Shown one piece after another: positions 11,339 through 32,607 of a stretch of 46,165 nucleotides of DNA. Numbering within the stretch: position 1 is the first letter of the stretch; the number at the start of each line of letters is the position of its first letter. Below the pieces are notes generated by a model, which did not search any database, was not told where the DNA came from, and saw only the letters and a program-made list of their open reading frames with translations. The position numbers were made by a program, and so were the translations under genes. The DNA is from Microcaldota archaeon (GTDB lineage Archaea; Micrarchaeota; Micrarchaeia; Micrarchaeales; CABMGC01), in NCBI GenBank assembly GCA_021803945.1, contig JAJZKW010000008.1:1-46165 (forward strand), written 5' to 3'.

Positions 11339-13807
11339 TCAGAGCTTCAGCTCGGAGAGGTCGTCGGAGTCGACAAGCCTCACGTTGCCGTAGTCTATAG
11401 CCATTTTCAGTATCTCTGCGTTGTTGCCATACGACATGTAGAGCCTGTCGAGGAACTGGAGCCTGGCCTCCTCGTCTATGAAGATTATGAATGACTTTAC
11501 CTTAAGGCTTATCTCTATGTCCTTCATTTTGGTTGAGCTTGAGTATATCTTGACATAGTTCTGCGCGCCCTTGTTCGTCACTATCACGTCGGCCTTGTTG
11601 GAGGAGTCCATCTCTGTTAGCAGCATTGCATTAGCTATGCAGTAGTCGCGCATCTTGCGGTATATGACCAGGTAGTCTATGCTGTGGCCCGATTCTGCAA
11701 TCCACTTGGACGGGGCGAAATAATCCCCAGCGGTGGCAACCTGCCCCTTGCTGACCAGGAAATTGAGTATTGAGTACGTGTTCCTGAGGGTTATCGACAT
11801 CCTGGTGTTCCCGTATCTTATGTTGTTGCTTATCCCGGACCTCAGCTCGTCAGGAGTCAGGGGGAGGCGGTTCCAGTGATAGAAGGAGTTCACCTTGTCG
11901 AATACGGAGATTATGGAATCAGCTGTTTCGGCCGCATGCTCCATCTTCGACGGCTTTATGTCAGGCACGTCTATATAGTATTCGTCTATGTTTACCGGGA
12001 CGAGCACCTTATTCAGCGTTATTATTATCACTGCGGCTATTGCGAATTCTATGTATAGCGGCGGTATGTTTATTCCGTTGGTCTTGTACGGATAGGGTAT
12101 GAGATAGCTGCTCCCTAGCATGCTGACATTGAATACCGCGTTTCCGTAGTTCAGGAGCGCGCCTTTGGGAAGAGTGTAGTTTATCCTTCCGTCCTGAACA
12201 GTTCCAGTGGCATTGTAGGCGCCGTTTATGCTTATTGAATATGGAGCACCAACTACATTATGGCCGTTGCTTGAGACATAGAATACGAAAGATCCGTTCC
12301 TGAAGTCCATGGAGACTGGCTGAACGGAGGAGTTGGCGACATAGAAAAGCGCAGACGAGTATACGGATCCGCGCTGGTCCTGGAGGGAGGCTATGTAATA
12401 GCCGCTAGGTAAGGAGAATGAGGAGTAGGTGTATATTGCCGTGGACCCTATCTGCCCTATCCTGATAGGATTAACGGTCATCTGCGTGAGGTTCTGGTTA
12501 TACAGAGGCACTGAGGCTATCACTACCCTGTTTGAGGCGTTGTACACCTGCGCGCTTATCTGCACCTGCTCTGTCTGGCCAACAATTGAAGGAAGGCCTA
12601 TCAGGCCGTTCTGCGTAAGCCTGAACCTAAGCGGCATTTCATATTCCCGTGATCCAGTGCTGTTTGACAGCATTAGCCTGACAAGCCCGTAGGAGCCGTT
12701 TATCTCTGCAGATATGCCTGGCGAGTACTGTATCATCGAATTGAGGGTGAATAACGTCGCCTCACCTGAGGAATTATGGATGACCACCGGGGAGCTGGCT
12801 GCTATGGCCTGGATCCAGAACCTTGACTCTATGACCTTGGATATGTCAGAAGCAAGAAGCCCTGGGCTGTTATCCCATCCTGATGAGGGATAGTTGCTAA
12901 GCGCTATCAGGGTGCCGTTGAATATGGAAGCTGAGCTGACCGGGCCGAATCTTGCTCCGGGAGAGAGGAAGAAGGTAGGGCTATTGAAGAAGAGCGTGCT
13001 GTTGAATGACGTCGAGTTTGCTGAGCTTGAAGAGTTGGTGGAATTGAAGGAACTGACATATTGGGATATTGCGGATGTCTCAGGGCCGGTGTCCTGCGCT
13101 ATCTGCCCGGTGCATGACACTGATCTGGAGAAGTTCCTGCCTGCGTATATCACAGTATCGCCTGCATTTAGCAGGCTTATTATAGTCGTGCTTGAGTATT
13201 TCGGGCACAGCTCGGTGTATGTCATGTTCGGCAGGAGTATGTTCGGGATAAGGCCGGAGGGCAGTATGACTATCGAGCCAGGAGGTATTGCGCCCATGCT
13301 GTTTATGTCCACTGCGCTTATCTTAGCTCCTGGCTGGAGTATCCCGTACTTCCGCAGCGATGAGTTCAGCGCAGCGAGCAGGCTGGAGCTGATGAAGCAC
13401 TGGACGCAGTATCCGCCAGTGTTTATGAAGTATATCTGGGGGGACGGGTTGGACGGATAGATGGTGAGCGACAGGCTGGCGCTTGAGGCATTGTGCTGCG
13501 AATATTGCAGCCTGGAATACGCAACAAGATAATTCGAGTAGTTGTAGGTAAGCATCCCGTCGGAGATGGATGATAGGTTACCTGATATGGGGCCTATTGA
13601 GGCTGTCTCGTGCTGGCTTAGGGACAAGGCTATCTGGGATTTTGCGTAGAAAAGGAGAGCTGCTGTGGCCAACACCACAATCATTGCGAAAAGGGCGGCT
13701 ATCCTGAGCGTCTTCGCATGGCTTGCGGCAAGCGGGATTGATGGTCGCGCTGGATTTGCAGGCCTGCCTGCAGGCTGCCTTTGGTTTTCCATCGGGCTTC
13801 CTCTCAT
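11339..13807 (-). CDS. Large membrane-anchored ectodomain protein of the secretion locus
   Basis: An 822-aa protein. A first membrane helix lies at about 33-54 and a second near 580-598. Between them is a roughly 525-residue Ser/Thr/Asn-rich, beta-rich extracellular region with many N-x-S/T sequons. The last 220 residues are cytosolic and mixed alpha/beta (NIDEYY ... DDLSELKL). No family is recognised. It is the last gene of the minus-strand operon that starts near 18605. Its ATG overlaps the stop of the 49-aa gene by 4 nt, so it is translated with the machine. A role as an envelope-spanning scaffold or adhesin of the apparatus is inferred only from topology and position. Confidence 0.7.
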   Translation of the reverse strand: MRGSPMENQRQPAGRPANPARPSIPLAASHAKTLRIAALFAMIVVLATAALLFYAKSQIALSLSQHETASIGPISGNLSSISDGMLTYNYSNYLVAYSRLQYSQHNASSASLSLTIYPSNPSPQIYFINTGGYCVQCFISSSLLAALNSSLRKYGILQPGAKISAVDINSMGAIPPGSIVILPSGLIPNILLPNMTYTELCPKYSSTTIISLLNAGDTVIYAGRNFSRSVSCTGQIAQDTGPETSAISQYVSSFNSTNSSSSANSTSFNSTLFFNSPTFFLSPGARFGPVSSASIFNGTLIALSNYPSSGWDNSPGLLASDISKVIESRFWIQAIAASSPVVIHNSSGEATLFTLNSMIQYSPGISAEINGSYGLVRLMLSNSTGSREYEMPLRFRLTQNGLIGLPSIVGQTEQVQISAQVYNASNRVVIASVPLYNQNLTQMTVNPIRIGQIGSTAIYTYSSFSLPSGYYIASLQDQRGSVYSSALFYVANSSVQPVSMDFRNGSFVFYVSSNGHNVVGAPYSISINGAYNATGTVQDGRINYTLPKGALLNYGNAVFNVSMLGSSYLIPYPYKTNGINIPPLYIEFAIAAVIIITLNKVLVPVNIDEYYIDVPDIKPSKMEHAAETADSIISVFDKVNSFYHWNRLPLTPDELRSGISNNIRYGNTRMSITLRNTYSILNFLVSKGQVATAGDYFAPSKWIAESGHSIDYLVIYRKMRDYCIANAMLLTEMDSSNKADVIVTNKGAQNYVKIYSSSTKMKDIEISLKVKSFIIFIDEEARLQFLDRLYMSYGNNAEILKMAIDYGNVRLVDSDDLSELKL

Positions 13808-13953
13808 TTTACATCTGCCTTCTTGAGCAGGTACTTCTTTATCAGGGAATCAACCTTCATAGAGAAGGCGTTGGTATTCCCTCTCACGCTCTTCTTGATC
13901 GAGTATATCCTGACATTATTGAAAGGCCTGTTTATGTGTACCGAATATATCAT
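13804..13953 (-). CDS. Small basic protein, 49 aa
   Basis: A short ORF starting MIYSVHINRPFNNVRIYSIK and ending KKYLLKKADVK. It has many Lys/Arg residues and no membrane helix. It fills the only gap in the operon: 7 nt after the coiled-coil wHTH gene and overlapping the next start by 4 nt (ATGA). Tight coupling on both sides argues that it is real. The family is unknown; it could bind nucleic acid or help assembly. Confidence 0.6.
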   Translation of the reverse strand: MIYSVHINRPFNNVRIYSIKKSVRGNTNAFSMKVDSLIKKYLLKKADVK

Positions 13954-13960
13954 GCAACCA

Positions 13961-14731
13961 CTAGCTCTTCAGCTCTATGTATCCCAAGGACACCATCTTG
14001 TCCAGTATCTGCTCCGTCCTTGTAGGAGATATGCTGTGCGCCTTTGAGAACTCTACAACATCTATGGAGCTGTTATGGACTGTTATCCATTCATCCACAA
14101 GAGCCATGAGCGACTCGTCGCTGTATTTCTGCAGGGAAGAGAGCTTCTCCTTGAGCACCTTGTTCTCCTCGGTGAGCTGCGCTGACTGAAGGGTGAGGTT
14201 CCTGTTTGAGGCGGAGATCTCTATGTCCAGCCTCTTGAGCTCCCTGTATTCCGTGAGTATAGAGTCGTACCTGTTGTACAGTGACGTGTATGTCTCCGAG
14301 AGGCCGGTTATCAGGCTCTCGAGGACCGAGTCTATGTACTGTATGAATTTTGTCTGGTTTACTGTGTATTTTTCCGCGAGGATCGAAAGCACGGCTGACA
14401 GCTCCTTGAGCACGTAGGCCCGCCTCAGGTTCACGCTCGAATCCGGTATGAGGGAATACACGACGCTTATCCCGTCAGGCCTTACCTTTATTATGTGGAA
14501 GAGGTAGGGCTTCTTGCCTATGTTCCTGCTCTCTACTTTTATCATGTCAAGTTCGTCGCCGTCAGCCTTCAGGAGGTAGAATGGCAGCTTTCCAAGGGTG
14601 TCCTTGACATCGGCCATGCTGCCATTCAGCTTTCCGTCAATCCTGAATTCCTCCACTTTAGGCTGTGAGGAAATCAGGGCATTTGAAGGTGAAGCGGTAT
14701 CGGGCAACGGACCACCATAGGGTATTGACAT
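13961..14731 (-). CDS. Coiled-coil protein with C-terminal winged helix
   Basis: A 256-aa cytosolic protein. Residues about 25-110 form an alpha/beta domain (KVEEFRIDGKL ... LFHIIKVRPDG). About 115-205 are helical with a long coiled coil (ILTEYRELKRLDIEISASN ... LTEENKVLKEKLSSLQ). The last 50 residues resemble a winged helix (DVVEFSKAHSISPTRTEQILDKMVSLGYIEL). No named family is recognised. It lies 5 nt after the zinc-ribbon membrane gene. Candidate roles are locus regulator or cytosolic adaptor that brings DNA to the channel (inference). Confidence 0.7.
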   Translation of the reverse strand: MSIPYGGPLPDTASPSNALISSQPKVEEFRIDGKLNGSMADVKDTLGKLPFYLLKADGDELDMIKVESRNIGKKPYLFHIIKVRPDGISVVYSLIPDSSVNLRRAYVLKELSAVLSILAEKYTVNQTKFIQYIDSVLESLITGLSETYTSLYNRYDSILTEYRELKRLDIEISASNRNLTLQSAQLTEENKVLKEKLSSLQKYSDESLMALVDEWITVHNSSIDVVEFSKAHSISPTRTEQILDKMVSLGYIELKS

Positions 14732-14736: not shown

Positions 14737-15117
14737 TTATTTATTGCTTGTGTTTTTTGTGGCGGGCTTGGCTGCGTCTTTGATCGAAAGCGCAGGAGTG
14801 TAATTCAGCAGCGAAAGCCCGTACAGGGCGATAAGCAGCAGGATCCCGACCATCACTGTCTGTGCGGTAAGCCGTATAGCTGCCCCGAGGACCAAGAATA
14901 TCGCTCCGAGTATTACGTATATGGCCTGCCTTGACGTGTACCTGTCCCTCCTCTTCCTGTATTCGGGATAGCACTCCCTGCATATCGCGAGCCTGTTGCC
15001 CTTCTCGTTATGCGTGACGTTCCTCTTGAACCATCTTATCGCCTCGAGCACCCTGTCGTCCTTTATAGGTATGCCTTGCTTCTGCTTCCCGCATATTATG
15101 CAGTATGTTGCCTTCAT
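14737..15117 (-). CDS. Zinc-knuckle protein with two membrane helices
   Basis: A 126-aa protein. Two C-x-x-C pairs (Cys 6/9 in CIICGK and Cys 46/49 in CRECYP) can bind one zinc in a cytosolic head. Two hydrophobic segments follow (about 65-82 and 86-105), then a short Lys/Thr-rich tail. The family is unknown. The gene is 4 nt after the 98-aa gene in the same operon. It is probably a small inner-membrane part of the secretion machine that could touch DNA or the ATPase. Confidence 0.7.
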   Translation of the reverse strand: MKATYCIICGKQKQGIPIKDDRVLEAIRWFKRNVTHNEKGNRLAICRECYPEYRKRRDRYTSRQAIYVILGAIFLVLGAAIRLTAQTVMVGILLLIALYGLSLLNYTPALSIKDAAKPATKNTSNK

Positions 15118-15121: not shown

Positions 15122-15418
15122 TCAATCCACAGAGAGCTCTATGAGCCTCCCGAACGTGTTCTTTATCCTTTCCTCCTCGAGGACGTCGAATATGTTTGAT
15201 ATGGTGACGTCGTCTATCCCGGTGCGCCTAAGCATGTTGATTATGTCATTGTGCCTTATGCCGGCTTTCTGCAGCATGTCTGCGAGCATTATGACATTGA
15301 CATGCCTGTGCATCTTGTCCAGCTGCGCCAGGAGCGCCTCTATGTTCTTGTCGCTCACCTTGAAGCTGGAGAGCATCCTCTTCAGTTCAATCCTGTTCAC
15401 AGCGAAAGATCCTGCCAT
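15122..15418 (-). CDS. Stand-alone copy of the ATPase C-terminal helical domain
   Basis: A 98-aa all-helical soluble protein. Residues about 27-80 align without gaps to the last 50 residues or so of the VirB4-like ATPase encoded just upstream. Matching features are I-x-x-L/I-L-x-x-L-D, then a V/L-x-x-x-L segment, then I-x-x-L/F-L-R-x-x/T-G-I-D/S-D and a final I-x-x-x/S-F. Inference: a duplication of the ATPase tail that became a separate subunit, perhaps forming helical contacts with the hexamer. It starts 8 nt after the ATPase stop. Confidence 0.7.
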   Translation of the reverse strand: MAGSFAVNRIELKRMLSSFKVSDKNIEALLAQLDKMHRHVNVIMLADMLQKAGIRHNDIINMLRRTGIDDVTISNIFDVLEEERIKNTFGRLIELSVD

Positions 15419-15426: not shown

Positions 15427-16932
15427 CTATTCACCGTAGCTGAACGACCTCGTTATTATGGAGTCGGATATGCCTATGCTCCTGAGGAACGATATCACTG
15501 CGTCGCGGCTCAGCTTTGCTGCAAGAAGCACCCTGACGAACTCCTTCAGGTCCACTATCCTGTTCTTCGAGTCCAGGACTGACAGTATAGAATCTATTGC
15601 GTCTGTATTTATATTGCTGTCTATGAACTTCGACTTGAGGAACGGCTTCTCGAAGGAGTACTCCTTTAGTATGGTTAGGTCCCTCATCTCTGATTCGTTC
15701 AGCATGTCAGCGAGTGTTATCGTGTAAACGTCAAGCGGCACCTCCCCTATGACCCTGTTTATTATGAATGTCGACGGGAACTGCGATGACGTCTGGAACG
15801 CCATGTCTATGGCAGCCTGTCCGACGCCGAGCTTGCCTATCTCGCTCCTTATGAACTGCGAGAAGTTCAGCGATCCCTGCAGGTAGTCCATGAACTTCTG
15901 GAACTTTATCTTGAGTATTATGTTCGTGCCGACGTTTGAGAATATGGCCTCGTTTATATCCGTCGGATTCTGCGACGCCACTATCAGCCCGAACTGGTAC
16001 TTCCTCCCCTCCCTGATTATTGTTATCGCATCGCTTCTCTCGTCGCTTGCGACCTTCCACGCCTCGTCCAGGACTATGAGGGCCTTCAGCCCTTTCGCAG
16101 CGCTCCATCCCTCGGACCTCATCTTCTCCTTGAGGGTCTGCAGCATGAACAGCGCGGCAAGCGCCCTGAACTTCTCGTCAGGCAGTCCTGACAGGTCAAG
16201 GTCTACAAGGCCTGAAGATATGATCTTGTCCAGGTCTATGGTGCTCTTTCTTGCAAAATAATCCTCGCCCTCCCTTGAGAACTGCCTGAGCCTGTATATG
16301 GCGTTCTCAAGCTCTGCGGGATATTCGTAGGTGCCCTCTGCGAGCTTCTCGTCAAGCAGGTGCGCAACATCCTTTAGCGTAGGGGCCTCCTTGCCAGGGA
16401 CCGGAGCGCTCGCAAGGATGAACCCTGCATTTAGATATGCCTGTTCCAAGGCCTCAGAGGTGATCCTCCTCTGCTCTGGGAAATTCGATATGTCAGTTAG
16501 TATGTCAAGCGAATTCATTATCTGCTTGGACCTGTCTATTGGTTTCATGCCGGAAAGGTCCATTATGTTGAGGTAGTCCCCCTTCCCGAACGATATTATC
16601 GTCCCTCCGCTCTGCTTCACCCAGGCCTTGTACTCCCCTGCCCAGTCCAGTATTATCGCGCTTGTGCCCCATACATAGCTCGCCCTTATCAGGAAGGTCT
16701 TTACGAAGAAGCTCTTTCCTGACCCGGTTATCCCTACAACGGATATGTGGGGGTTGGTGAGTATGTTGTATGTCCATGTGAACGGCACTCCGAACCTCCT
16801 TGTTATGCCTATGAAGACCGAATCAGTGGGGTCGTTCAGCAGGAATCCTGCAGGTGGCTCTGGAGGCCTGCTTATGAAAGTCCTCTTGGCGAGCTCATTG
16901 CTCATTATCTTCTGCACTTTTATAAGGCTCAT
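15427..16932 (-). CDS. VirB4/CedB/HerA-like secretion ATPase
   Basis: A 501-aa ASCE-type ATPase. Walker A is GITGSGKS (67-74). An ILDWAGEY segment (about 94-101) follows, typical of the HerA/VirB4/TraC group. Walker B is ALIVLDEAW (284-292), and the ASQNP sensor lies at about 319-323. In place of the roughly 200-residue N-terminal domain of VirB4 there are only about 60 residues before Walker A. Two upstream neighbours may supply it. The last 60 residues form a small helical domain that is also encoded separately next door. This is the motor that would power pilus assembly or DNA transfer at the inner face of the membrane. HerA-type DNA-repair ATPases are an alternative, but the context of pilin and VirB6-like genes favours secretion. 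Confidence 0.85.
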   Translation of the reverse strand: MSLIKVQKIMSNELAKRTFISRPPEPPAGFLLNDPTDSVFIGITRRFGVPFTWTYNILTNPHISVVGITGSGKSFFVKTFLIRASYVWGTSAIILDWAGEYKAWVKQSGGTIISFGKGDYLNIMDLSGMKPIDRSKQIMNSLDILTDISNFPEQRRITSEALEQAYLNAGFILASAPVPGKEAPTLKDVAHLLDEKLAEGTYEYPAELENAIYRLRQFSREGEDYFARKSTIDLDKIISSGLVDLDLSGLPDEKFRALAALFMLQTLKEKMRSEGWSAAKGLKALIVLDEAWKVASDERSDAITIIREGRKYQFGLIVASQNPTDINEAIFSNVGTNIILKIKFQKFMDYLQGSLNFSQFIRSEIGKLGVGQAAIDMAFQTSSQFPSTFIINRVIGEVPLDVYTITLADMLNESEMRDLTILKEYSFEKPFLKSKFIDSNINTDAIDSILSVLDSKNRIVDLKEFVRVLLAAKLSRDAVISFLRSIGISDSIITRSFSYGE

Positions 16933-16936: not shown

Positions 16937-17758
16937 TCACTTTTGCACCTGGAAGCTCCCCATCAGCTCTCCCATGCTGGGTATTATGTAATTCATCCTG
17001 AACAGCAGGTACAGCTCGCGCCCCATCACCCTGGTTATGCTCAGGTCGAATATGTTGAATATCGTCTGGAGCTCGTTCAGCTGGTTGGATAGGTTGTCGT
17101 TCGCCTCCTTCAGGCTTACCCCCACAGCGGTTGACTCTATGTACATTATGTTGTTTATCGGCTTCTCTCCCTGTCCTATCTTGTCTATGCTCGTCTGGAG
17201 TATGTTCATCTGCCTCTGCATGTTCTCCAGCCCCATAGAATTCGGGGAGGATGACTGCATCTCCTTTGAGTACTGGAACTCGAGGAGGCCCCGCTTTGTC
17301 TCGAGCTCATCCCTGTACCTCTGTATGTCCTCTGATGCGGAAACGAGGTTGAACTTGAATGGGAAGTGTATGTTCATTATCGCCTTCTCCCATTTGTCAG
17401 GCGCGGATACGAGCGCCTCTTCGTCTTCGGTTCCCCTTTCCGCAGCGAATACGTAATTGTATATGTTCGCGGTTAGGTACCCAGTCGCGTAGTATATGCC
17501 GTTTGTGTACTTCACCACCGCCTCCTGTCCGCTCGTTATGACATAGTCCTTTGCAGGCACCTGTGTTATGTTCAGCGCCTTCGTGAACAGAGGGACTATT
17601 AGGAAATCGGCGAATGCGAGGAGCAGGATGACCAACATCGTTACAAGCGAGAGCACGGTCATGATTATGCCTATGGCACCGAACCTGGAGGCGCCGAGAA
17701 GAACCAGCAGCGCTATGAAGAGCGAAATGACGAGGTATATGATTGTGTTTTCGTCCAT
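16937..17758 (-). CDS. Membrane protein resembling a VirB3 plus VirB4 N-domain unit (copy 2)
   Basis: A 273-aa protein. Two N-terminal membrane helices (about 5-22 and 29-55) precede a soluble alpha/beta domain. The soluble part has a strand segment NGIYYATGYL, a long helical middle (SEDIQRYRDELETKRGLLE), and then a VGVSLKEANDNLSNQL-type stretch. RVMGRELYLLFRMNYIIPSM closes it. Topology and pattern parallel its upstream neighbour, and both recall the N-terminal domain of VirB4/TraC ATPases preceded by VirB3's two helices. Sequence identity is low, so this rests on pattern and context. It sits 4 nt before the ATPase gene. Confidence 0.65.
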   Translation of the reverse strand: MDENTIIYLVISLFIALLVLLGASRFGAIGIIMTVLSLVTMLVILLLAFADFLIVPLFTKALNITQVPAKDYVITSGQEAVVKYTNGIYYATGYLTANIYNYVFAAERGTEDEEALVSAPDKWEKAIMNIHFPFKFNLVSASEDIQRYRDELETKRGLLEFQYSKEMQSSSPNSMGLENMQRQMNILQTSIDKIGQGEKPINNIMYIESTAVGVSLKEANDNLSNQLNELQTIFNIFDLSITRVMGRELYLLFRMNYIIPSMGELMGSFQVQK

Positions 17759-17762: not shown

Positions 17763-18605
17763 TCACTCGGCCTGACCTGACTTGTACTTCATCATCTCTG
17801 TTATCGTTGCAGGAGGTATCATGTAGTCAGGCTCTATGAACACCAGTATGTCGTTGCCCGTGGCAATCGTTGCCGTGACTCCTAGGGTCGCGCTTATGCC
17901 TGCGGCTACCTCCTCTGCCCTGAGGGACGAGAGGTTGATTGCCTCGTCTTCAGTATTCCCCACAGCAGTTATGCTCGCGTAGAGGTTGAGCTCCTGCGAA
18001 TTGGACCTCGAGACGTTGTCAAACATGTTGCGCCACATCGTGACCTCGCCCTTCACCCTGTCAAGCTCCTTGGCAGGCGTGGCCTTGTCGTTCTGCAGGG
18101 TGTTGTACCTCTGCTCAGACTCGTTCAGCTTTGCGGTTATCCTTGACATATACTCGTCCTTGTTTATCGAATTCAGCTGTGACGAGAGCCTTATGGGATT
18201 CTTGCTTATGCTCACGAGCCTGGCGAAGAGCGAAGTGAAGTTCAGCTTCTCCTCGTCGCTCATCTCTGTGGAGGAGCTGTAGACAGGCACCTTTATGAAT
18301 GAGGTGGCATACACCTCGTTCTCATCCCTCACTATTATCGAATTGCCGTTTGGGGACATGTAGAAAGGCTCGCCAGAGTCTATGACTGCAGTCATGTGCT
18401 TCATGCGGACGATCGGATTGAACATGTAATAGTAATCCTTTGCCGCGAAGGCCAGCACGGAGGCTGCAAGTGCCAATATTGCAAGAACCAGGGCTACGAG
18501 GGACAATGAAGCAGGCACAAGGCCCATGAGGACAGTGAAGAGGAAGCCTACCGCGGCGATGATTATGAAGGCCACTCTCTTCTTTCCGCTATCCAAGCAT
18601 ACCAC
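17763..18605 (-). CDS. Membrane protein resembling a VirB3 plus VirB4 N-domain unit (copy 1)
   Basis: A 280-aa protein and first gene of the ATPase operon. Two membrane helices lie at about 11-30 and 34-55. The soluble domain contains SIIVRDENEVYATSFIKVPV, a helical region with EYMSRITAKLNESEQRYNTL, then YASITAVGNTEDEAINLSSL and a closing IEPDYMIPPATITEMM. This is the layout of a VirB4/TraC N-terminal domain and is shared with the next gene. The start is GTG at 18605; a TTG at 18596 is possible. TATA-like boxes at about 18621-18638 on the minus strand favour a very short or absent leader. The stop is 4 nt before the next gene. Confidence 0.65.
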   Translation of the reverse strand: MVCLDSGKKRVAFIIIAAVGFLFTVLMGLVPASLSLVALVLAILALAASVLAFAAKDYYYMFNPIVRMKHMTAVIDSGEPFYMSPNGNSIIVRDENEVYATSFIKVPVYSSSTEMSDEEKLNFTSLFARLVSISKNPIRLSSQLNSINKDEYMSRITAKLNESEQRYNTLQNDKATPAKELDRVKGEVTMWRNMFDNVSRSNSQELNLYASITAVGNTEDEAINLSSLRAEEVAAGISATLGVTATIATGNDILVFIEPDYMIPPATITEMMKYKSGQAE

Positions 18606-18823: not shown

Positions 18824-20302
18824 ATGGCTAGGCCAATAAACCGAGGCAAAGAGAGTAAACTTTTTGAACCAGCTGCAGGAGAGCTAATAAAGAGGGCAAC
18901 GAAGTTGGCTGAAAGTGCCGCAGTAATGATAGAGGAAAAGCGGAGGAAAGCAGAGAAGTCATTATCAGTATTAGCAGAGGAAGTGTTTCCTGCACTGATA
19001 GGATCCTTAAAGGACAGACTTGAACAGATGCAAAAACTAAATGCAGATACTAAGGAATTGGAACAGATCAAAAAGATGATTGAAGATTTAGAATTGCAGA
19101 AAAATAGGACAGAAGAGATGCTGGACTTTTTTAAAAAGCCTGACGGAGTGAACGGGGCGCTGGAATCAGGAGACGTAGCTGCTAAGGAACGGTTGAAAGA
19201 AATTGCAGATAAATTAACTCAGGCAGGCCCTGAGGCTTCTATCAAATTAGTTATGGAGATGCTAGACGAAGACAGGGCAGTAGTGCAGGGATTTGGAAGG
19301 AGAGGCACGCAGATAGACGCTTTTGGCGAAGCGTTAGAGAGTATAGAAAGGTTTAATCTGCTGATCACTGGAAGGCTTTCTGATAGACTTGACGTAAGAA
19401 CATGGTATAAGGGAAAAATGGTGTTTGGAGCAGGCATAGACGAGCAGCAAGAAAATGTTAGCGAAATGCTTACTGCAATTGGCATAAACGACCTGGCGGA
19501 TGAATTGAAAGGATTTGAGAGGGCGGTTGTTGAAATGTATGTGCTGGCTGGAACTCGCGAGGCGATGAAAAAGGAGACTGGCATAGACGTAATCAAGGCT
19601 GGAAGAGACTTCATCACTAAGATAATTGATCCTGACAGCTCAGGGTCGCTCAACGGCGACGTCTACTCTTTCGGACTTAGAGACGCAATTAGCAAAGAAA
19701 AAAAGATGGATGAACTCGTTGAAGATACAGTAAACGTAGTATTAATACAGGAATTTGAAAAAGAGAGGGATTACATAATAAATAAGTGCGAAGGGATCAC
19801 TAAACTCGAGCTTGTAGAAATCAATCCAACAATAGCTGAATTAAATGAGAGAAATAAAAGATTGCATATACTAGTGAGAGTGTTTGAGAAAGGCCAAAAT
19901 GAAGCGACAATGAAAATACTTGAAGGACTATTGAATGAGACGAACAAGGCAATGGCTAAGACCGCGGAAAAGCTTGGCAGAGATTCTGAAGATGTACCTA
20001 TAGACAGGATGATAAATGACAGCCATATAGACAGCCTGAGGGAAGCGGCTATGGAAAAAGATTATGAATTAGTAGAGGCCAGGTTCCGCGACATATATGT
20101 GTTTTTCCAGAAGATAGGGGTGGATTTGGAACCGTTGCATGAAGCGCTCAGGAAAATGCAGGAAATTGAAGGACTAAGACGTGCTAGCGCTGAAAATGAG
20201 AGAACGTCACGGGAAGCAAAAATTATAAGTGAGGTTGCCTCGGATAGACCTGGAAGACCTACACAAAATGGCCCTGAAAACCCAGATAATAAAAGCAGTT
20301 AA
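18824..20302 (+). CDS. Unknown soluble helical protein on the opposite strand of the secretion locus
   Basis: A 492-aa, highly charged, mostly helical protein with no signal peptide or membrane helix. The N-terminal 130 residues are predicted coiled coil (AEEVFPALIGSLKDRLEQMQ and following). The C-terminal 30 residues are polar and disordered (DRPGRPTQNGPENPDNKSS). Codon use is more AT-rich (AAA, GAA, TTA) than in the flanking ATPase operon, shared with the convergent gene 20360-21568. No family is recognised. Being in the locus but independently transcribed, it could be a regulator, a chaperone or a secreted substrate; none of these is demonstrated. Confidence 0.7.
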   Translation: MARPINRGKESKLFEPAAGELIKRATKLAESAAVMIEEKRRKAEKSLSVLAEEVFPALIGSLKDRLEQMQKLNADTKELEQIKKMIEDLELQKNRTEEMLDFFKKPDGVNGALESGDVAAKERLKEIADKLTQAGPEASIKLVMEMLDEDRAVVQGFGRRGTQIDAFGEALESIERFNLLITGRLSDRLDVRTWYKGKMVFGAGIDEQQENVSEMLTAIGINDLADELKGFERAVVEMYVLAGTREAMKKETGIDVIKAGRDFITKIIDPDSSGSLNGDVYSFGLRDAISKEKKMDELVEDTVNVVLIQEFEKERDYIINKCEGITKLELVEINPTIAELNERNKRLHILVRVFEKGQNEATMKILEGLLNETNKAMAKTAEKLGRDSEDVPIDRMINDSHIDSLREAAMEKDYELVEARFRDIYVFFQKIGVDLEPLHEALRKMQEIEGLRRASAENERTSREAKIISEVASDRPGRPTQNGPENPDNKSS

Positions 20303-20359
20303 TCGGGCCTTAACAGATATTGGTTTGGTTATTTTCCTTATGACTTGGCTCTCTTGCTA

Positions 20360-21568
20360 CTATTCTCCTGGATTTTGGTTTGGTTCGGTTGTATCTGATT
20401 GATCCTTAGCCTTTAGAGCCTTGGCTCTTTTTTCTGACTTGGCTTTTAGCTTGGCTGCCTCCTCTTTTAGCCTGGCTGCCGTCTCAAGCTTTTCCTTGTC
20501 CTCTGCGCTGCGCATTTCATCGATCGGCTGGCCCTTTGCCTGATCTGCCATTTTTGCGCTTGACTCTGCTACTTCTTTCTCAAGTTGTGCCGCTCTCTCT
20601 TGGATGAGACTAGCCTGTTGAGCCTCTGTTGTAGCTTCGCGGATTTTTTTCTTAGTGATTAATTCCTCTTTCTTTTTTGGAACAAGTCCCGGGAAGAGGG
20701 CGTTAGGTCTGAGGGTAAAGAGGTAACTAGAGTCTTTCTTTAGTTTTTCCAGTTCTTCTGCAGCATGCTGCTTCGAGAATTCGCGGGAAGCCGCTCGTTC
20801 TATCTCTCGTTTCTCGGCTCGCCTTCTGAGAACTTGGTCTCTTGCCGATTCTCCATTTGGAGTTGGTCTTTCGGCAATATTTGCAGCTGTTGCCTTAGCC
20901 GCACGCAATGCAGCGCCATATGCTCCTATATTGTTCTCTACCTGAGATTTGATGAATTCCATTGATTCATTATGCTCTGAGATAAGGGAACTGGTAGGAG
21001 AAAATAGAGAAAAACTTGTTTTCCCCCATTTCTTGGATGTGGATTCCTTCCACGTCTTGAATGCGTCTTTGGTCTTGGAACCAGTATCCTTCTCTCTCCT
21101 GATTTGTGTTGCGCCAGTTGTTTTTTGTGTATTGCCGCTAGCTGTTTTTCTCTTCCCAATCGTTGTAGATACTCTTACCCTGCCGCCTTCTGCGGATGCA
21201 GCGCCTGAAACTGCCAGTGACGCGGCCACTTTGCCTACTTTGAGCGTGTGTATGAAAAATCCAGGTCTCGACGCAAGGAATTTGCGCTTAGAAGATTCAC
21301 CAATGGATTTGACGATCCTCTTATGTGTACCTGAACCTGGGAGATACCCAGCTCCTGCAAAACCGAATCCTGACTTTCCTGCTATTGATGCCTTGCCCCC
21401 GGGGTTTATGCCTGCCAGAGTGGCCAGGCCGAAGAAGTTGAATAGGCTGTAGCCCCTGTTAAGCCCTGCAGCGGCCACAAGGAGAGTTATTATTATCAGT
21501 ATAGGTATGAGGGCATTTATTGCGCCCAGCGAAAACAGGACCATGGCTATGAAAACCAACATTCCCAT
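20360..21568 (-). CDS. Membrane-anchored basic coiled-coil protein
   Basis: A 402-aa protein. Two hydrophobic segments lie in the first 40 residues. A Gly/Ser/Lys-rich linker follows, then long charged helices rich in Ala/Glu/Lys (about 230-385) and a polar tail ending TEPNQNPGE. A TTG lies one codon upstream of ATG 21568. The ATG is preferred because a TATAAATA box (21592-21599) predicts transcription starting at that base. The bulk of the protein should be cytosolic. The family is unknown. It follows the six polytopic membrane genes on the same strand but has its own promoter. Confidence 0.7.
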   Translation of the reverse strand: MGMLVFIAMVLFSLGAINALIPILIIITLLVAAAGLNRGYSLFNFFGLATLAGINPGGKASIAGKSGFGFAGAGYLPGSGTHKRIVKSIGESSKRKFLASRPGFFIHTLKVGKVAASLAVSGAASAEGGRVRVSTTIGKRKTASGNTQKTTGATQIRREKDTGSKTKDAFKTWKESTSKKWGKTSFSLFSPTSSLISEHNESMEFIKSQVENNIGAYGAALRAAKATAANIAERPTPNGESARDQVLRRRAEKREIERAASREFSKQHAAEELEKLKKDSSYLFTLRPNALFPGLVPKKKEELITKKKIREATTEAQQASLIQERAAQLEKEVAESSAKMADQAKGQPIDEMRSAEDKEKLETAARLKEEAAKLKAKSEKRAKALKAKDQSDTTEPNQNPGE

Positions 21569-21591
21569 CAATAATATTGTGCATTTTCAGA

Positions 21592-22701: not shown

Positions 22702-23805
22702 TCATATTATCCTTGTAAGTATCGAAAATAGATCCATTCTTTCTCCTATGGCCTTCGAGAAATCAACAATGAAAGCATCCACTACTATTAAGTTGAGAAG
22801 AGGTATAAATATCAACCCTGCGCTTACAAGACCTCCGAAGATTATGAGCGGAGTGAATATTCCTGCGAAGTTGCTAAGGACGAGTGGCGCTCCGAGTAGA
22901 GGACTGATAATCAACGCCACAGATGTCAAAGCATTGTAGAAATTTAATAGCATATGCGTAGAAACAGCATTTGTCATTACGACATCTATGAACCCGTAAG
23001 TCATGCTTGCCATCAGTGGAAATACGAATCCTAGACCCAGTCCAAAAGCTATCATTGCGCCTCCGAAGCTCTTGGTCACTCCAAATGACCTTGCTATAAG
23101 CCCCAGTATAAGGAAGATTGAAAATAGGAGCGCAGAGGAGCTAAGAAGGATCTGGAGTAGTTGCGATGTGAGCACAACAAGGAAATACGCGCCTAGTGCC
23201 GGAACTATATATTGGTGCACCAGGACTATTGGAAAAGCATTAAATACCAAGGCAGCACCTATTCCGGAAACTGGGACGGATTCCGCGATTGGATAACCAA
23301 CAACTCCTCCTGGTGGAGGAAGTTTTAGAACCGAGGAAGGATTAAGGCCGCCGACAAGTGAGAATAGGTATATGCCTTCGCTGAATATCCCGACGTACTG
23401 ATTAAACTGGTACATATCGCAGAGTGATATGCCATAAATGTCGTTTATGTTACTTGAGGATGGGATATTTGTAGCGATGCTTGGGTTGCATAGCTGAGGC
23501 AGCAGCCCTGCCGAATTGTATGCACTAGCAGGATTCACTGAGACAAGCAAGGTCGAGAAGCTTAGGAAAATTATGGCCAGAATTATTGTGACAAACGCAT
23601 CGTATATCTTGGCCCTAGCCCAGACCCGTATATCATTCCTGCCGAGCAATGGACTGAGCTGGTATATTATTGCGACCACAGCTATGATTGCAAGAACTGC
23701 GGCCATTACTATTGGGAACCATATATTCGGGCCTGCAGAAAGGAAGCATACTATGCTGTTTAAGCTTCCTGGGCAGAATGCATTAAGCATTATATTTTGT
23801 ATCAT
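22702..23805 (-). CDS. VirB6/CedA-like polytopic membrane protein, paralog 5
   Basis: A 367-aa protein without a clear cleavable signal; the first helix is at about 29-50. Block 1 is WARAKIYDAF (62-71), where the usual Glu is replaced by Lys-Ile. Block 2 has Arg 239 in ARSFGVTKSFGGAMIAFG. Block 3 is FSKAIGERMDLFSILTRII at the C-terminus. It has about seven hydrophobic helices. The start overlaps the stop of paralog 4 by 4 nt, so translation is coupled. Confidence 0.75.
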   Translation of the reverse strand: MIQNIMLNAFCPGSLNSIVCFLSAGPNIWFPIVMAAVLAIIAVVAIIYQLSPLLGRNDIRVWARAKIYDAFVTIILAIIFLSFSTLLVSVNPASAYNSAGLLPQLCNPSIATNIPSSSNINDIYGISLCDMYQFNQYVGIFSEGIYLFSLVGGLNPSSVLKLPPPGGVVGYPIAESVPVSGIGAALVFNAFPIVLVHQYIVPALGAYFLVVLTSQLLQILLSSSALLFSIFLILGLIARSFGVTKSFGGAMIAFGLGLGFVFPLMASMTYGFIDVVMTNAVSTHMLLNFYNALTSVALIISPLLGAPLVLSNFAGIFTPLIIFGGLVSAGLIFIPLLNLIVVDAFIVDFSKAIGERMDLFSILTRII

Positions 23806-25073: not shown

Positions 25074-25083
25074 CCTTTTCAAC

Positions 25084-28016: not shown

Positions 28017-28027
28017 ATTAATCAGGT

Positions 28028-29287
28028 TTAAGCCAGTTTCAGTTTGTTTCCTAAGGACAGCCTTATAGAACCTCCCATTGCCTTTGCGATGGCATCAACG
28101 AGCGGATACATTATTATTAGATCAAAAACGAACAATAGCATTTGTATTATGATGTAGAACCCGATGACAAATATTTGATTTAGGTAGGTGTATATTGCAC
28201 TTAAGGAGAATACTGGAAAAGCCGCCCATATAGAATAAAATAGGTTTGTAGGAGCTACGGAGCCCGGAGAGAATATTGAAGCTAGACACAAAAATGATCC
28301 GATAATACCTGCTCCTGCAGAGGAAGATACGGCTGTGCATGATTCTGATGCGAAGAGAAATGGCACTGGAACTGATATTGGTAATGCACTTGCGATTAAA
28401 GTTGTTACTTGATAGTTGAAGAGTATGAATGTCGCAGGTATTACAAGACATAGCGCCACGCCTATAGCTATGATGGTACCCCCAATCCCACGGATGAATG
28501 GGAATGCCCTGAACATTATCCCAAGAGGGATGAAGAAGGTTAACCCTATGTATGCAAATGACGGCAGGGTGGTTAGGAACCCTATTATGAGTGCAGTGAA
28601 TGGGAAGAGCATGAAGTTTACAAGATCCCCTATTATAGAGCTGAACGGAGATATAAAGTAATTGCCAGTCTGCAGCATCCAGTTTGCGAACGGGAGGAAC
28701 TGCACGCCGAAAAACAGTGTTACATATTCCAATATTGGTATTGGTATATAGAACCCTAGCTGCACGCTGGACCAGAAGCCAGTGCCTGCTGACATTATCC
28801 CTACTTCGCTCCATATGTTTGTCAGGTTGCTGTTCACATTGCATAGGTACCCTTCAGCTCCGGCTACTAGCGGGGTTATGTCAGCAAAGGCTGACGTGTG
28901 TATCCCTGTAGCTATTGAATTGGGCACTAGCGCATATGAAAGATTTCCGATGAACATTATCGCTCCGTATATGCTAACTATTATTATCGCGGATTTAGCG
29001 ATTTCCCAGTATTCGTTTTGGATCCAGTTCCTTATCCCAGTATTGGGGAACAGCCTGCTTATTACAAATGCAATCGCAACAACATCGAAGGATACGGTCA
29101 GCGCTATCAAAGCCAATCCAACTCCAGCCCCGGAATTTGTAATAGGAGTAGTATAACCAGATACGCAAACCTGAGGTATGGGCGAGCCGTTGGGATAAGA
29201 TATGGCACCTGGAGGAGTGGAAGCATATATGACATTCGAAAGCGCTAGCAGTAGAAACGCAAAGAGAACCGATAACCTTAGTCGCAT
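28028..29287 (-). CDS. VirB6/CedA-like polytopic membrane protein, paralog 1
   Basis: A 419-aa protein. A signal peptide (MRLRLSVLFAFLLLALSN, cleavage near IYAS) is followed by seven or eight helices. Block 1 is IQNEYWEIAKSA (89-100). Block 2 has Arg 260 in FRAFPFIRGIGGTIIAIG. Block 3 is IAKAMGGSIRLSLGNKLKL. It is the first gene of the six-gene run. A TATA box about 25 nt before a predicted start just upstream of the ATG suggests that the run to 21612 is one operon. Confidence 0.75.
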   Translation of the reverse strand: MRLRLSVLFAFLLLALSNVIYASTPPGAISYPNGSPIPQVCVSGYTTPITNSGAGVGLALIALTVSFDVVAIAFVISRLFPNTGIRNWIQNEYWEIAKSAIIIVSIYGAIMFIGNLSYALVPNSIATGIHTSAFADITPLVAGAEGYLCNVNSNLTNIWSEVGIMSAGTGFWSSVQLGFYIPIPILEYVTLFFGVQFLPFANWMLQTGNYFISPFSSIIGDLVNFMLFPFTALIIGFLTTLPSFAYIGLTFFIPLGIMFRAFPFIRGIGGTIIAIGVALCLVIPATFILFNYQVTTLIASALPISVPVPFLFASESCTAVSSSAGAGIIGSFLCLASIFSPGSVAPTNLFYSIWAAFPVFSLSAIYTYLNQIFVIGFYIIIQMLLFVFDLIIMYPLVDAIAKAMGGSIRLSLGNKLKLA

Positions 29288-29318
29288 GAATATACTTGAC
29301 GTACAGAAGTTTAAAAAT

Positions 29319-29329
29319 CTTTATAAAAA
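29319..29329 (-). promoter_or_regulatory. Promoter of the six-paralog operon
   Basis: The minus strand reads TTTTTATAAAG about 37 nt upstream of ATG 29287. This predicts initiation near 29298 and a leader of about 11 nt. A second AT-rich box (TTTTTAAAC) overlaps downstream. Confidence 0.5.
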
Positions 29330-29413
29330 CTCGTTGTATATGACGAACTTTGATCGCAGCGTGTCATTGGATGAGGTTAAATCCAGAACGAGCAATTGCA
29401 TCTCGGAGGCATG

Positions 29414-30151
29414 TCAGTGCCTGAGCAGCCTGAATCTGTCCATATACGCCTCGGCTATGAATATAATAAAATACGGGACTACGAAGAGCGAGTTGAGGAC
29501 AAGGACAACGTACCTGGACCAGAATGTGCCGAGCAGCGATATGGACACCGTGTCCAGGACAGAGACTACGATGGTTATAAGCACAAGCCATAAGAGGAAG
29601 TACTGAGGCTCGCGGAGCACCAGCCTTGCGCTATCCTTTACAGCACGCATGATCTTCTTATCGTCAACCACTACCGCGCTCGGAGCATAGAATATTATCG
29701 CGAACCCGAAGAGCCCTACCACTGCTGTGAGCAATGTTGATATCCCGAACGAATAGCCTATGATGTTTGCGGCAGTCATTATTATGGCATATACAAGGAA
29801 TATCACGAATACCTTGCCTATGTATGCCTCTATGTTCTTGAACGTCCTGCTGCCTATTGTTGAGTGCGTCCTCTTCGACTTCACCAGTATGCTTATCAGC
29901 ACAAAGGCGAAGCTCAGGAAGAGGAGGGAGAATATTGTGGAGGCAGTTATGACTGCGAGGCTCAGCAGATTAATGTTCCCGTTCACGAATACGCTCGCGC
30001 TCCGCAGGAAGATCGCTCCTGCAGAGATGTACGTGGGGAGCGGAGCCAGCATGGGTATGGCGAAGGCTATAAGGAAAGGTATTGAAAAGATCACAGCAAG
30101 GCTTATCTTATCCCTGTAAAGCTCAAAAGACTCCTGGATTACTCCGGCCAA
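29414..30151 (-). CDS. Six-helix membrane protein of unknown function
   Basis: A 245-aa integral membrane protein with about six hydrophobic helices, including a long first one (SLAVIFSIPFLIAFAIPML). Cytosolic charged links include VKSKRTHSTIGSRTFKN and DDKKIMRAVKDSARL. The overall look is that of DUF4013-like membrane proteins, but I cannot assign a family. The start is TTG at 30151, since no in-frame ATG or GTG is better placed. A TTTTAA box lies about 25-30 nt upstream. It is between the six-paralog operon and the glycosyltransferase-like gene. Confidence 0.65.
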   Translation of the reverse strand: MAGVIQESFELYRDKISLAVIFSIPFLIAFAIPMLAPLPTYISAGAIFLRSASVFVNGNINLLSLAVITASTIFSLLFLSFAFVLISILVKSKRTHSTIGSRTFKNIEAYIGKVFVIFLVYAIIMTAANIIGYSFGISTLLTAVVGLFGFAIIFYAPSAVVVDDKKIMRAVKDSARLVLREPQYFLLWLVLITIVVSVLDTVSISLLGTFWSRYVVLVLNSLFVVPYFIIFIAEAYMDRFRLLRH

Positions 30152-30302
30152 AGGCTTGCACCTGTCATCTATGAGGGATTAAAAGTTAAAAAGATATGCC
30201 TATTTTGGATAGGTCATTAAAATGCGGTTTTTATTAAAATTGTACACAATACCTAGTACAAAAACTGCTGCGTTATAGCACTATTGCAAGCGATGGAGTA
30301 AA

Positions 30303-32180
30303 CTAGCGGTATTCTATTGGATGCGACCTGTAATAATAATCTTGATTGTATAGCACAGCGGAGAAATATGCTGGCTTTATTATATTCCCAGAAATAGTTG
30401 CGGAAATATTGTAGTTCCCAGATGAAGGAAGCATTATTTTGTTTACATTCACAGAACATGGAAAACTGCAGTTAAGAGAACCTTTCATTATGCTGGAATT
30501 ATATAGACCGTAGTACATGTCGCTCCCATTGCTCATGACTTCTATGAGAAGTGACACATTGGCATTGCTTTCAGGCACTGCAGATAGCCTTGATGCATAT
30601 ATGAAGTTGCCTGAAGATGATCGTACAATGGATTGGTTTTGAATAGATATGCCAAGGTTGTTTGTATATGCTAGATGTCCTGCATAAATTACAGCGATAA
30701 TTAATACTACTGCCGCCGCAATTATGCCAAAAAAGGCAAAGGCATAATCCTTATTTTTGTTCAGTGCAGAACGCATGGAATTCTTGCTGTCATCTTTGAT
30801 GCCAGACTCGGAAATGAATGCGAATGCGGCAAATGGAAGCAGGTAATATATAGCGAGGCCGTGGTTCAAGAAGAGAAATGGGATTATACTCAGGAGAGGC
30901 ACAAGCTTTTTCTTGTTCGTGTACAGGAGGATTGCGATTGTAAGCGCTAAGGAAAGCAGGAATAGATACACGAATGTGTGGAAAGGCACCGGATACACTG
31001 AGACTAAAAAGTAGCCTATTGGGGCTAGGCTGTTTGGAAGGATGTTTGAAGCGACAGTTAGGAGATTATGGACATATATTGCAGGGTCGGCAGATATGAA
31101 ATAGCCGTTTATCAAAAGAAACACTGAAAGCGATCCAATAGCATCAGCAATGCCTTTCTTGAATCCGTAGCTGTTGAACGAGTATACTATGAACAGAATC
31201 ACTATCACCCATAGCTGTTCCTGCAATGAGAGCGCAATTCCCAGAATCAGCCATGAATATTTATCTCCGAATCTTGAGTACATAAGGAGGATTACTGCCA
31301 TCATCAGGAAGATGACAAGCGATGACAGCGAGAGTATTAGCATTCCTAGCAGGAAATATGCTGGAAAGTTAGATTTCATCTCCTTCTTATTCCGCGCGAT
31401 AAGAAGATAGGAGAAGATGAATACTAGAAAGAATATTGCTCCTTGTGACTTCATGAAGCTGCCGGTGAGGGCCTGCATTGATGGATTGAATATAAGGAAG
31501 AAAGGTAGTTGCACTAGGAAATAAAGGGCAGGATAGCCAAGCATGTCCATTATGCCGCTATTCGAATTAATAGTGAGCCCCACATTGGTAGATTGGTGAT
31601 AATTGTATAGGATATTTGCAATTGAAACTGAATACGGATTGATGCCTCCTAAAAAGCTCTTGATTGCGTAGAAGGCTATTACAGTTTCATCGTCTGCTAC
31701 GAAAATTAGATATGTGAAATATATTGCAATGATAAGCACAATCAGTGCCATTAAGGCAATTTTAACCTTTTTGTTTTTTATGTACAGGTATAGCTGAAGC
31801 ATGAAGAATATCGGAATAAACAGTAAGAAGTGGATAAAGGTGTACTGCGCGTAGCTGAGCTGAGACAGTCCGGCAGCTCCGTTGACTATGAGGAGACAGG
31901 TGGCTATGATGAAAAGGACAGCGGAAAGAAGGAAAAGATAACTTAATGATCTAGATTCGTTATTTTGTGCGTTTTTTTGAAGTCCATATACCATCATGTA
32001 TGCGATGATTACCATTGAGTATACGGCCATTACTGCTGCGCCGATATTTGAGAAATACGCGATACTGAAAGTCAGGGAAATTGAGAATAATATGAGAGAA
32101 ATTACCAGGCGCCTTGGCTCTTTTGCAAAAAAGAGCCGCAAGTTTTTCCTCTGGTAATTTCCAGTGTTTGGATTACCCAT
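30303..32180 (-). CDS. GT-C type membrane glycosyltransferase-like protein
   Basis: A 625-aa protein with a dozen or so hydrophobic helices and a C-terminal extracellular domain of about 120 residues. After the fifth or so helix comes an acidic loop ADDETVIAFYAIKSFLGG followed by INPYS, then a GYPALYFLVQLPFF segment. This layout is typical of GT-C enzymes of the PMT/GT39/GT87 kind that use lipid-linked sugars on the outer face. The C-terminal part has several N-x-S/T sequons and two Cys. It sits 67 nt after the VirB2-like pilin gene, so glycosylation of the pilin or other surface proteins is a reasonable inference. Confidence 0.65.
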   Translation of the reverse strand: MGNPNTGNYQRKNLRLFFAKEPRRLVISLILFSISLTFSIAYFSNIGAAVMAVYSMVIIAYMMVYGLQKNAQNNESRSLSYLFLLSAVLFIIATCLLIVNGAAGLSQLSYAQYTFIHFLLFIPIFFMLQLYLYIKNKKVKIALMALIVLIIAIYFTYLIFVADDETVIAFYAIKSFLGGINPYSVSIANILYNYHQSTNVGLTINSNSGIMDMLGYPALYFLVQLPFFLIFNPSMQALTGSFMKSQGAIFFLVFIFSYLLIARNKKEMKSNFPAYFLLGMLILSLSSLVIFLMMAVILLMYSRFGDKYSWLILGIALSLQEQLWVIVILFIVYSFNSYGFKKGIADAIGSLSVFLLINGYFISADPAIYVHNLLTVASNILPNSLAPIGYFLVSVYPVPFHTFVYLFLLSLALTIAILLYTNKKKLVPLLSIIPFLFLNHGLAIYYLLPFAAFAFISESGIKDDSKNSMRSALNKNKDYAFAFFGIIAAAVVLIIAVIYAGHLAYTNNLGISIQNQSIVRSSSGNFIYASRLSAVPESNANVSLLIEVMSNGSDMYYGLYNSSIMKGSLNCSFPCSVNVNKIMLPSSGNYNISATISGNIIKPAYFSAVLYNQDYYYRSHPIEYR

Positions 32181-32247
32181 ACTCTAGCCATTTCACTGTA
32201 GGCGTATCTGTAGACGCGCTTGTATACGCATCAGCAGGCCGGGAAAA

Positions 32248-32607
32248 TTATGGGCAAGTTGGAGAAGTTATACTTGATCCGCCAGCACTTGCTATCATAC
32301 CGATCAATGACGGGGCTATTATTACTATTATAAGGCCCACTATTCCTCCGACAATCATGCCAAGCGACCATCCCTGAAGGTTTCCCTTGAGGTTGCCTGC
32401 TGCAGGAAGCATGTGTGCAACTGCGTATAGCGCTCCACCTAGTATGAAGAGTGCAAGTGCCAATATCCCTACAACCGATCGAATGCTGCCGATTATTCCG
32501 CAAAGGCTGCTGCTTATTGCTGTTGAAGCTTGAGCTGTTACGAATTGTATCGCAATCGTTCCTGCAAAAACCAGTACCATCAGGTAGAATCTGTTTATAT
32601 AAGCCAT
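32248..32607 (-). CDS. VirB2/TrbC-like pilin
   Basis: A 119-aa small protein. A signal peptide (MAYINRFYLMVLVFAGTIAI, cleavage near VTAQA) is followed by two hydrophobic helices. The first is in SVVGILALALFILGGALYAV and the second in GMIVGGIVGLIIVIIAP. A short polar loop between them holds GNLKGNLQGW. That hairpin, plus small size after processing (about 93 aa), is the VirB2/TraA/CedA1 pilin plan. Two Cys, at the start of the mature part and at the extreme C-terminus (SPTCP), could form a disulfide. The frame is open to 32640. I chose ATG 32607 because the TATA box at 32648 predicts a start at about 32625. It is the first gene of the minus-strand locus. Confidence 0.78.
   Translation of the reverse strand: MAYINRFYLMVLVFAGTIAIQFVTAQASTAISSSLCGIIGSIRSVVGILALALFILGGALYAVAHMLPAAGNLKGNLQGWSLGMIVGGIVGLIIVIIAPSLIGMIASAGGSSITSPTCP

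Follow-up and report, generated by a model that had tools for sequence, protein, structure and literature searches.

The stretch of DNA analysed here, referred to as the window, comprises all 46,165 nucleotides of contig JAJZKW010000008.1 (assembly GCA_021803945.1; C17 in our numbering), a chromosome contig of a Micrarchaeota genome of 0.90 Mb that is 94% complete. Scans of its open reading frames (ORFs) with Pfam and NCBIfam revealed a cluster of type IV secretion (conjugation)-type parts spanning 11339-32640. This cluster is rather likely to encode a domesticated, chromosomally fixed archaeal translocation machine of the type IV secretion system (T4SS) type with a heteromeric membrane core, which, judging from the sequences, is probably hetero-hexameric. 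The T4SS-type reading is based on a pilin belonging to TrbC/T4SS_pilin, an ATPase nearest to CedD, TraC and CedB, the homology between the pilin and the hairpin of one of six polytopic proteins (C5), the synteny of the cluster, the joint absence of its parts, a strict six-gene rule, and a second, minimal operon in relatives. From the 3' end of the cluster, the order on the minus strand is bigA, cc256, Znk, s98, the VirB4-type ATPase, mA, mB, (p403), C1-C6, m245, (m625) and the pilin. An earlier note made from the letters of the window had named a pilin, six polytopic proteins, an ATPase, two VirB3-VirB4N-like membrane proteins, a zinc-knuckle membrane protein, coiled-coil/winged helix-turn-helix (wHTH) proteins and an ectodomain protein, and all of them were found where it had placed them.

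The six-gene array

The six C proteins, all polytopic, occupy 21612-29287 on the minus strand and are numbered by position: C1 (21612..22691), C2 (22702..23805), C3 (23802..25106), C4 (25084..26811), which has an enlarged extracytoplasmic loop, C5 (26808..28016), whose N-terminal hairpin is homologous to the pilin, and C6 (28028..29287). C1 to C4 were characterised by cross-hits of hidden Markov models (HMMs) and position profiles, C5 by HMM, hhalign and a structural model, and C6 by HMM, position profiles and trees. C1, C2, C3, C4 and C6 match one another heavily; C5 is weaker in these cross-hits and linked mostly via C6 and C3. The N-terminal hairpin of C5 resembles the pilin (pilin HMM 1.4e-7; hhalign 89.7%, 1.9e-6), and such a relation between pilin and polytopic N-terminus is known for CedA1/CedA and VirB2/VirB6 (Beltran 2023, PMC9905601). 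From position and gene order, topology and this pilin-like hairpin, and not from a structure search, we infer that C1-C6 are VirB6/CedA-like. NCBIfam gave no CedA/TedA-type match for C1, C5 and C6, hhalign of the C profiles against R388 VirB6 and the pNOB8 proteins was negative, and sequence searches of the PDB with the pilin, mA and C5 profiles returned nothing useful. TTYH hits of the C5 model in Foldseek were discarded as not meaningful because their TM-scores were about 0.2.

In the window's own order, about 50 arrays were read. The clean order C6-C5-C4-C3-C2-C1 was found in 44 named loci; in four others an overlapping ORF conceals one gene, and in a further one C3 is frameshifted. These five had appeared as arrays of five or seven genes until they were re-read. 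Outside the order, where arrays were read in a sample of genomes, 21 complete arrays from 13 genomes and nine other families each consist of six genes, and 8 of the 13 genomes hold two complete arrays; many families carry two complete sets. Neighbouring genes mostly overlap or lie a few bases apart. Arrays of five or seven genes do not occur among those read, and shorter ones stop at contig or locus ends. Nearly all genomes compared in this study are metagenome-assembled genomes (MAGs).

With position profiles that left out one family at a time, 155 of 155 proteins were placed at the position they occupy. The position label changes 13 times in a tree of 166 rows (minimum 6, shuffled mean 110.7) and 8 times in a tree of 78 rows (minimum 6, shuffled mean 52.8); these trees have weak deep branches and some long rows, with individual branchings unreliable and the clustering by position robust. 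Each array position is an ancient lineage of its own, and the array comprises six distinct, positionally conserved and always complete paralogues, as a hetero-hexamer would require. The simplest reading of the six-gene rule suggests a stoichiometric complex of six unlike subunits. In several families (loci L192, L202 and L187 in genomes G202, G133 and G118), the VirB6-like proteins at positions 2-5 in one of the two arrays contain very large insertions, with total lengths of up to 1143 aa, suggesting that one of the two arrays specialises in outside contacts.

The pilin, the ATPase and its membrane partners

The pilin gene (32248..32640, minus strand) was assigned to the VirB2/TrbC type by alignment, Pfam and a profile comparison with the ORFs of R388 and pNOB8. 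In the alignment, a signal peptide with an A-x-A site, two hydrophobic helices and the nearly invariant cysteines C47 and C129 are recognisable. The window pilin itself matches TrbC weakly (E 0.087); TrbC/VIRB2 is matched by 10 of 19 orthologues (best 9.7e-8) and T4SS_pilin by 7 of the 19. The top match of the pilin profile among the R388 and pNOB8 ORFs is TrwL/VirB2 of R388 (8e-6). By these matches the pilin is of the VirB2 type. C47 and the C-terminal C129 would both sit on the outer side of the hairpin, and a disulfide between them could staple the pilin ends together. Elsewhere, the pilin domain stands at the C-terminus of long N-terminal regions of 687 and 280 aa (L127:4723-6786 (-) and L133:11879-12721 (-)); these fusions are possible tip adhesins.

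The ATPase (15427..16932, minus strand, 501 aa; Pfam/NCBIfam) carries a C-terminal winged-helix-like domain. Its top family is NCBIfam CedD (1.2e-22), followed by TraC and CedB (6.5e-17), the CedD and CedB scores lying far below the equivalog cut-offs. It is a VirB4-type ATPase and also one of the CedB/CedD/TedB type. The VirB4 N-terminal domain is absent, since the chain opens almost directly with the ATPase domain. The adjoining s98 (15122..15418, minus strand; MCM_C 9.7e-5) is a free-standing paralogue of the MCM_C-like winged-helix domain at the C-terminus of the ATPase (hhalign 98.6%).

On the other side of the ATPase lie mA (16937..17758), with transmembrane (TM) helices and an alpha/beta domain, and mB (17763..18605), with two TM helices and an alpha/beta domain, both on the minus strand. 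They are paralogues (hhalign 98.2%) and each is a candidate half of a VirB3-VirB4N module. For mA, a marker of the whole class, an AlphaFold model with a predicted local distance difference test (pLDDT) of 79 was compared by Foldseek, and the five best hits are all R388 VirB4/TrwK or its inner-membrane complex. A test by sequence profile gave no match to VirB3 or the VirB4 N-terminal domain. The modelling suggests that VirB4 is split into three chains, the ATPase, mA and mB, of which mA and mB probably supply the missing N-terminal domain. A split VirB4 has in part already been reported for CedB/CedD (PMC11868833).

Conservation and joint loss

An orthologue of the ATPase was found in about 108 of 118 relatives with 60-85% identity, among them Micrarchaeota MAGs, Candidatus (Ca.) Micrarchaeum sp. 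A_DKE and ARM-1. In a phylum-wide draw, which returned members of the same class only, 39 of 40 genomes were positive for the ATPase, and the mA profile matched 213 of 246 class genomes and 88 of the 96 high-quality ones. Within the order, the synteny proposed as a check in the earlier note is almost perfect: 18 of 19 genomes, drawn from two families, share the same gene order over 40 kb, and one genome has an array split off. As this synteny extends over the whole cluster, the cluster is not a chance grouping.

Beyond the order, the invariant core is bigA-cc256-Znk-ATPase-mA, and the C arrays mostly lie elsewhere in the genome. In ARM-1 the set is located in three places, with the array at 342.7-350.5 kb, the ATPase at 426.9 kb and mA-mB at 451 kb. 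The earlier note had regarded scattering of the parts, with unrelated functions, as fatal to its proposal; ARM-1 and other families do hold the parts in two to four loci, yet these are retained or absent together. Twelve genomes without mA also lack the ATPase orthologue and any C protein. That unlinked parts are kept or missing jointly is the strongest evidence for their functioning together.

The minimal operon

Many relatives carry a second operon of four genes, in the order pilin, one C-type gene, an mA/mB-type gene and a shorter CedB-like ATPase. Genes for a winged-helix protein and for a HerA/TrwB-like ATPase of 730-750 aa often come next. In profile comparisons with the large system, its single C protein matches each of the six positions with at least 99.8%, its pilin matches with 98.1% and its VirB4N with 99.5-99.6%. 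It was detected in 47 of 60 relatives, mostly with 30-60% identity to the query, and not found in the window's own assembly. Examples are the loci L119, L185, L203-L206 and L212 (in G039, ARM-1, G076, G001, G010, G073 and G043). In G001 it stands beside NusG-like and ribosomal protein L11-like genes; a circularity test of the carrier contig in G010 (C30) found no overlap. A DUF87 protein of pNOB8 matches the ATPase of the minimal operon, and no relatives of the C proteins were found in pNOB8.

The minimal operon with its one C gene makes an expansion from one gene to six the likely history of the large system. Divergent one-gene versions, possible intermediates, have just one VirB6-like gene alongside the ATPase and mA (L200 on G142:C11, L207 on G145:C14). 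In G161 (L208, L209), contig C15 holds a second ATPase-mA locus, and a pilin gene is paired with a VirB6 gene on C11.

Proposed mechanism and alternative explanations

In the proposed machine, the ATPase, mA and mB would form a three-chain VirB4 docked at the membrane, which would power pilin extraction, substrate movement or both. The pilin would assemble into a two-helix pilus of the VirB2/CedA1 type. Six different VirB6/CedA-like subunits, each from its own gene, would make up the channel and pilus base as a ring or stalk, instead of copies of one. The enlarged outer loops of the C proteins and the bigA ectodomain would face the partner cell, and a macromolecule would pass through the envelope when cells touch. 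As the substrate, we slightly prefer nucleic acid over an exported protein, because the VirB4/CedD/HerA ATPases are kin of DNA translocases and the cytosolic parts repeatedly contain winged-helix-like domains. We are most confident of the VirB6 homology, less so of the split VirB4 and least of the hetero-hexamer. In our estimate the balance is even as to whether the channel is a pseudo-six-fold hetero-oligomer of six VirB6-like subunits that arose from a one-gene ancestor, has been an indivisible set since before the class radiated and was duplicated as a whole set in many families; it may serve as a host-contact machine on the symbiont side, for instance as the 21-nm barrel of ARM-1.

Several observations weigh against this interpretation. 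In the R388 structures, bacterial VirB6 forms a pentamer, so the homologues do not lead one to expect a hexamer, and the six genes could also be six separately used subunits. The C proteins tested have no sequence match to the VirB6/TrbL or CedA families. A Foldseek search of the PDB with the C5 model (pLDDT 85.6, predicted TM-score 0.80) gave no significant match, R388 VirB6 being at rank 22 with E 0.89. The hits of mA to R388 VirB4 are weak and under the usual significance (E 0.06-0.2, best probability 0.94, query TM-score 0.26-0.29). Finally, VirB8, VirB9 and VirB10 were not found.

The most probable alternative, though less likely than not, assigns the locus to contact-dependent secretion or exchange on the host cell, that is, effector export or metabolite exchange, as for the T4SS of Patescibacteria and Rickettsiales. 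It accords with an obligate-symbiont lineage, the large ectodomain protein and the big outer loops of VirB6-like proteins of up to 1143 aa; Rickettsiales, too, have VirB6 paralogues in tandem that bear large extensions (PMC7648143). ARM-1, which has all the parts, shows in electron cryotomography a 21-nm barrel in the symbiont envelope at host nanotubes, together with thin filaments (PMC11329633), though no protein has been attributed to the barrel. Filaments at contact sites have been reported for Ca. M. harzensis, and the authors suggest that the host makes them (PMC8975820). We regard both as leads and not as evidence for the locus. Moreover, no effector or coupling protein was identified, and presence of the system does not track PurL (6 of 12 genomes without the system vs 16 of 27 with it) or HisD (2 of 12 vs 7 of 27); these two crude markers of autonomy show no association with its absence and neither back nor counter a link to host feeding.

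The locus is rather unlikely to be the Micrarchaeota counterpart of the DNA exchange systems Ced (Sulfolobales) and Ted (Thermoproteales), a DNA import or export device for exchanging chromosomal DNA in which the extra VirB6-like genes are a simple elaboration. The minimal parts are the same, namely a VirB2-type pilin, a polytopic, putatively CedA/VirB6-type protein and a VirB4-type ATPase, encoded on the chromosome and without a relaxase. Furthermore, the window ATPase is nearest to CedD, the pilin is related to the N-terminus of the polytopic protein, VirB4 would be split as in CedB/CedD (PMC11868833), and several cytosolic parts have winged-helix-like domains. However, where Ced and Ted have one or two CedA-like proteins, the window encodes six paralogues in a set order, its VirB4 N-domain would come from two membrane proteins, and it adds bigA, cc256 and Znk to the core, in another phylum and with DNA transfer as a putative function. 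The C proteins have no family-level match to Ced proteins, and no repair or Ups-like genes are consistently linked. The simpler one-VirB6 operon of the 47 relatives resembles Ced/Ted more in composition and is their nearer analogue, so that a different or an additional task is probable for the six-gene machine. The earlier note's description as a conjugation-type machine stands, while its label Ced/Ted-like fits the minimal operon better than the six-VirB6 locus, and the uptake of DNA or nutrients that it proposed is a possible function.

It is improbable that the six C proteins are an unrelated transporter or envelope family, linked by chance to a T4SS-type ATPase and pilin. The missing structural and profile matches to VirB6 would be explained in this way, but not the order pilin-C-VirB4N-VirB4 of the minimal operon, the homology of the pilin and the C5 N-terminus, or the retention and loss of the C proteins together with mA and VirB4 even where they are unlinked.

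The earlier note had seen neither relaxase, VirD4 nor integrase and had favoured a chromosomal device over an integrated plasmid, and both points were borne out. The PF03432 relaxase is absent from the genome and no relaxase appeared in the window scans, other classes having been scanned for in the window only, and cryptic relaxases are possible; for a VirD4/TrwB-type coupling protein, PF10412 stayed below its curated cut-off and the genome offered only a HerA-like protein on contig C15; no integrase was found. The locus is chromosomal, syntenic in the order, class-wide and adjoins TopoVI-B/KRR1. Chromosomal fixation, the absent PF03432 relaxase and the missing TrwB/VirD4-type match argue strongly against ordinary conjugation as its present role. 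An integrated conjugative element or its remnant is highly improbable, for although the parts are those of a mating apparatus and the GC content of 20000-32000 (about 45%) is below that of the flanks, the fixed position in 18 of 19 genomes, the near-universal ATPase at 60-85% identity and the lack of a relaxase, an integrase and a coupling-protein match over the cut-off refute it for the extant locus, and it could be revived only as a very ancient origin.

Other genes of the cluster and its surroundings

Three further proteins encoded on the minus strand belong to the class-wide core. bigA (11339..13807; 822 aa) consists, according to the alignment, of an N-terminal TM helix, an ectodomain of about 500 residues, a second TM helix and a conserved cytosolic C-terminal domain of about 210 residues. 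It has no family matches; its ectodomain contains a conserved ILPSGLxP...GDTVIYxGRNF stretch resembling a glutamine-amidotransferase-like fold, and the cytosolic tail is highly conserved. cc256 (13961..14731) combines a coiled coil with a C-terminal winged-helix-like domain, and Znk (14737..15117) a cytosolic zinc-binding domain (C-x2-C...C-x2-C) with C-terminal TM helices. The polytopic membrane protein m245 (29414..30151, minus strand) is conserved in the same place in almost all genomes of the order and also lies near the array in family f7.

The earlier parts list needs correction in some respects. Its placement on one strand holds for the machine genes, but cc492 (18824..20302), a coiled-coil ORF of 492 aa inside the cluster, is on the plus strand; it had no relative (0 hits) in the loci searched and is probably not part of the machine. 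p403 (20360..21571, minus strand), with an N-terminal hydrophobic segment and an Ala/Lys-rich tail, and m625 (30303..32180, minus strand), a polytopic membrane protein without family match, are lineage-specific. By locus comparison, the former is confined to near relatives; m625, variable in presence, belongs to the cluster in no family but the window's own (f1) and is probably accessory.

One flank contains housekeeping genes (S6e, an eIF2-gamma-type GTPase, KRR1 and topoisomerase VI-B, TopoVI-B); on the other lies a cluster of the type IV pilus kind, whose type II/IV pilus genes (33999-38121) start just past the T4SS-type cluster and form a separate module outside it. Adjoining the T4SS pilin, 32832-38121 encodes a coiled-coil wHTH protein, a T2SSE ATPase, a 207-aa protein and two T2SSF proteins. 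G010 and G048 also have such a cluster close to the T4SS pilin, and in ARM-1 its distance from mA is about 10 kb; it could be an Ups-like partner. The region 38253-42456 is variable and low in GC, with two AAA_14/DUF4143 ATPases and a ParE-like toxin. LamG-domain proteins are encoded on either side of the T4SS-type cluster (6531-7607 and 43902-45986); in Mia14 such proteins have been tied to host contact (PMC5498576).

Relation to known systems and significance

The T4SS of Patescibacteria is likewise near-universal and chromosomal in a reduced episymbiotic lineage, with most clusters lacking a relaxase (PMC12102498), but there the pilin is multiplied, VirB4 is of full length and a six-gene VirB6 set has not been reported. 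The vir homologue (rvh) T4SS of Rickettsiales, also obligate symbionts, has tandem VirB6 paralogues with enlarged domains, four in Anaplasmataceae and five in Rickettsiaceae (PMC7648143); unlike the window locus, it is a diderm system with outer parts, has four or five genes in place of a strict six and is of independent origin. R388/VirB conjugation shares the VirB2-type pilin, the VirB4-type ATPase and probably VirB3-VirB4N, whereas no VirB5, VirB7-VirB11, VirD4 or relaxase was found here and R388 VirB6 is a single gene. The giant nanohaloarchaeal SPEARE-type proteins (VirB4/TraG domain) are another case of a VirB4-type ATPase in DPANN archaea with a proposed role in host-directed secretion (PMC10266531), but their ATPase is fused to a giant adhesin and a VirB6 set has not been described.

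In the freely searchable full-text literature, which leaves aside subscription papers and preprints, we found no report of a T4SS in Micrarchaeota, and "VirB", "secretion" and "conjugat" are all missing from the main text of a comparative study of the phylum published in 2025 (PMC12892359). Multiplication of VirB6 is itself known from Rickettsiales; the strict six in an archaeal system is new. Among T4SS of any kind, such a six-paralogue rule would represent a new architecture, with a logic comparable to the step from homo- to hetero-hexameric MCM helicases. How DPANN archaea and their hosts exchange material is an open question, for which the locus provides a specific, class-wide candidate machine; its genes can be named in two co-cultures that are in cultivation (Ca. 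M. harzensis A_DKE and ARM-1), which makes this question directly testable.

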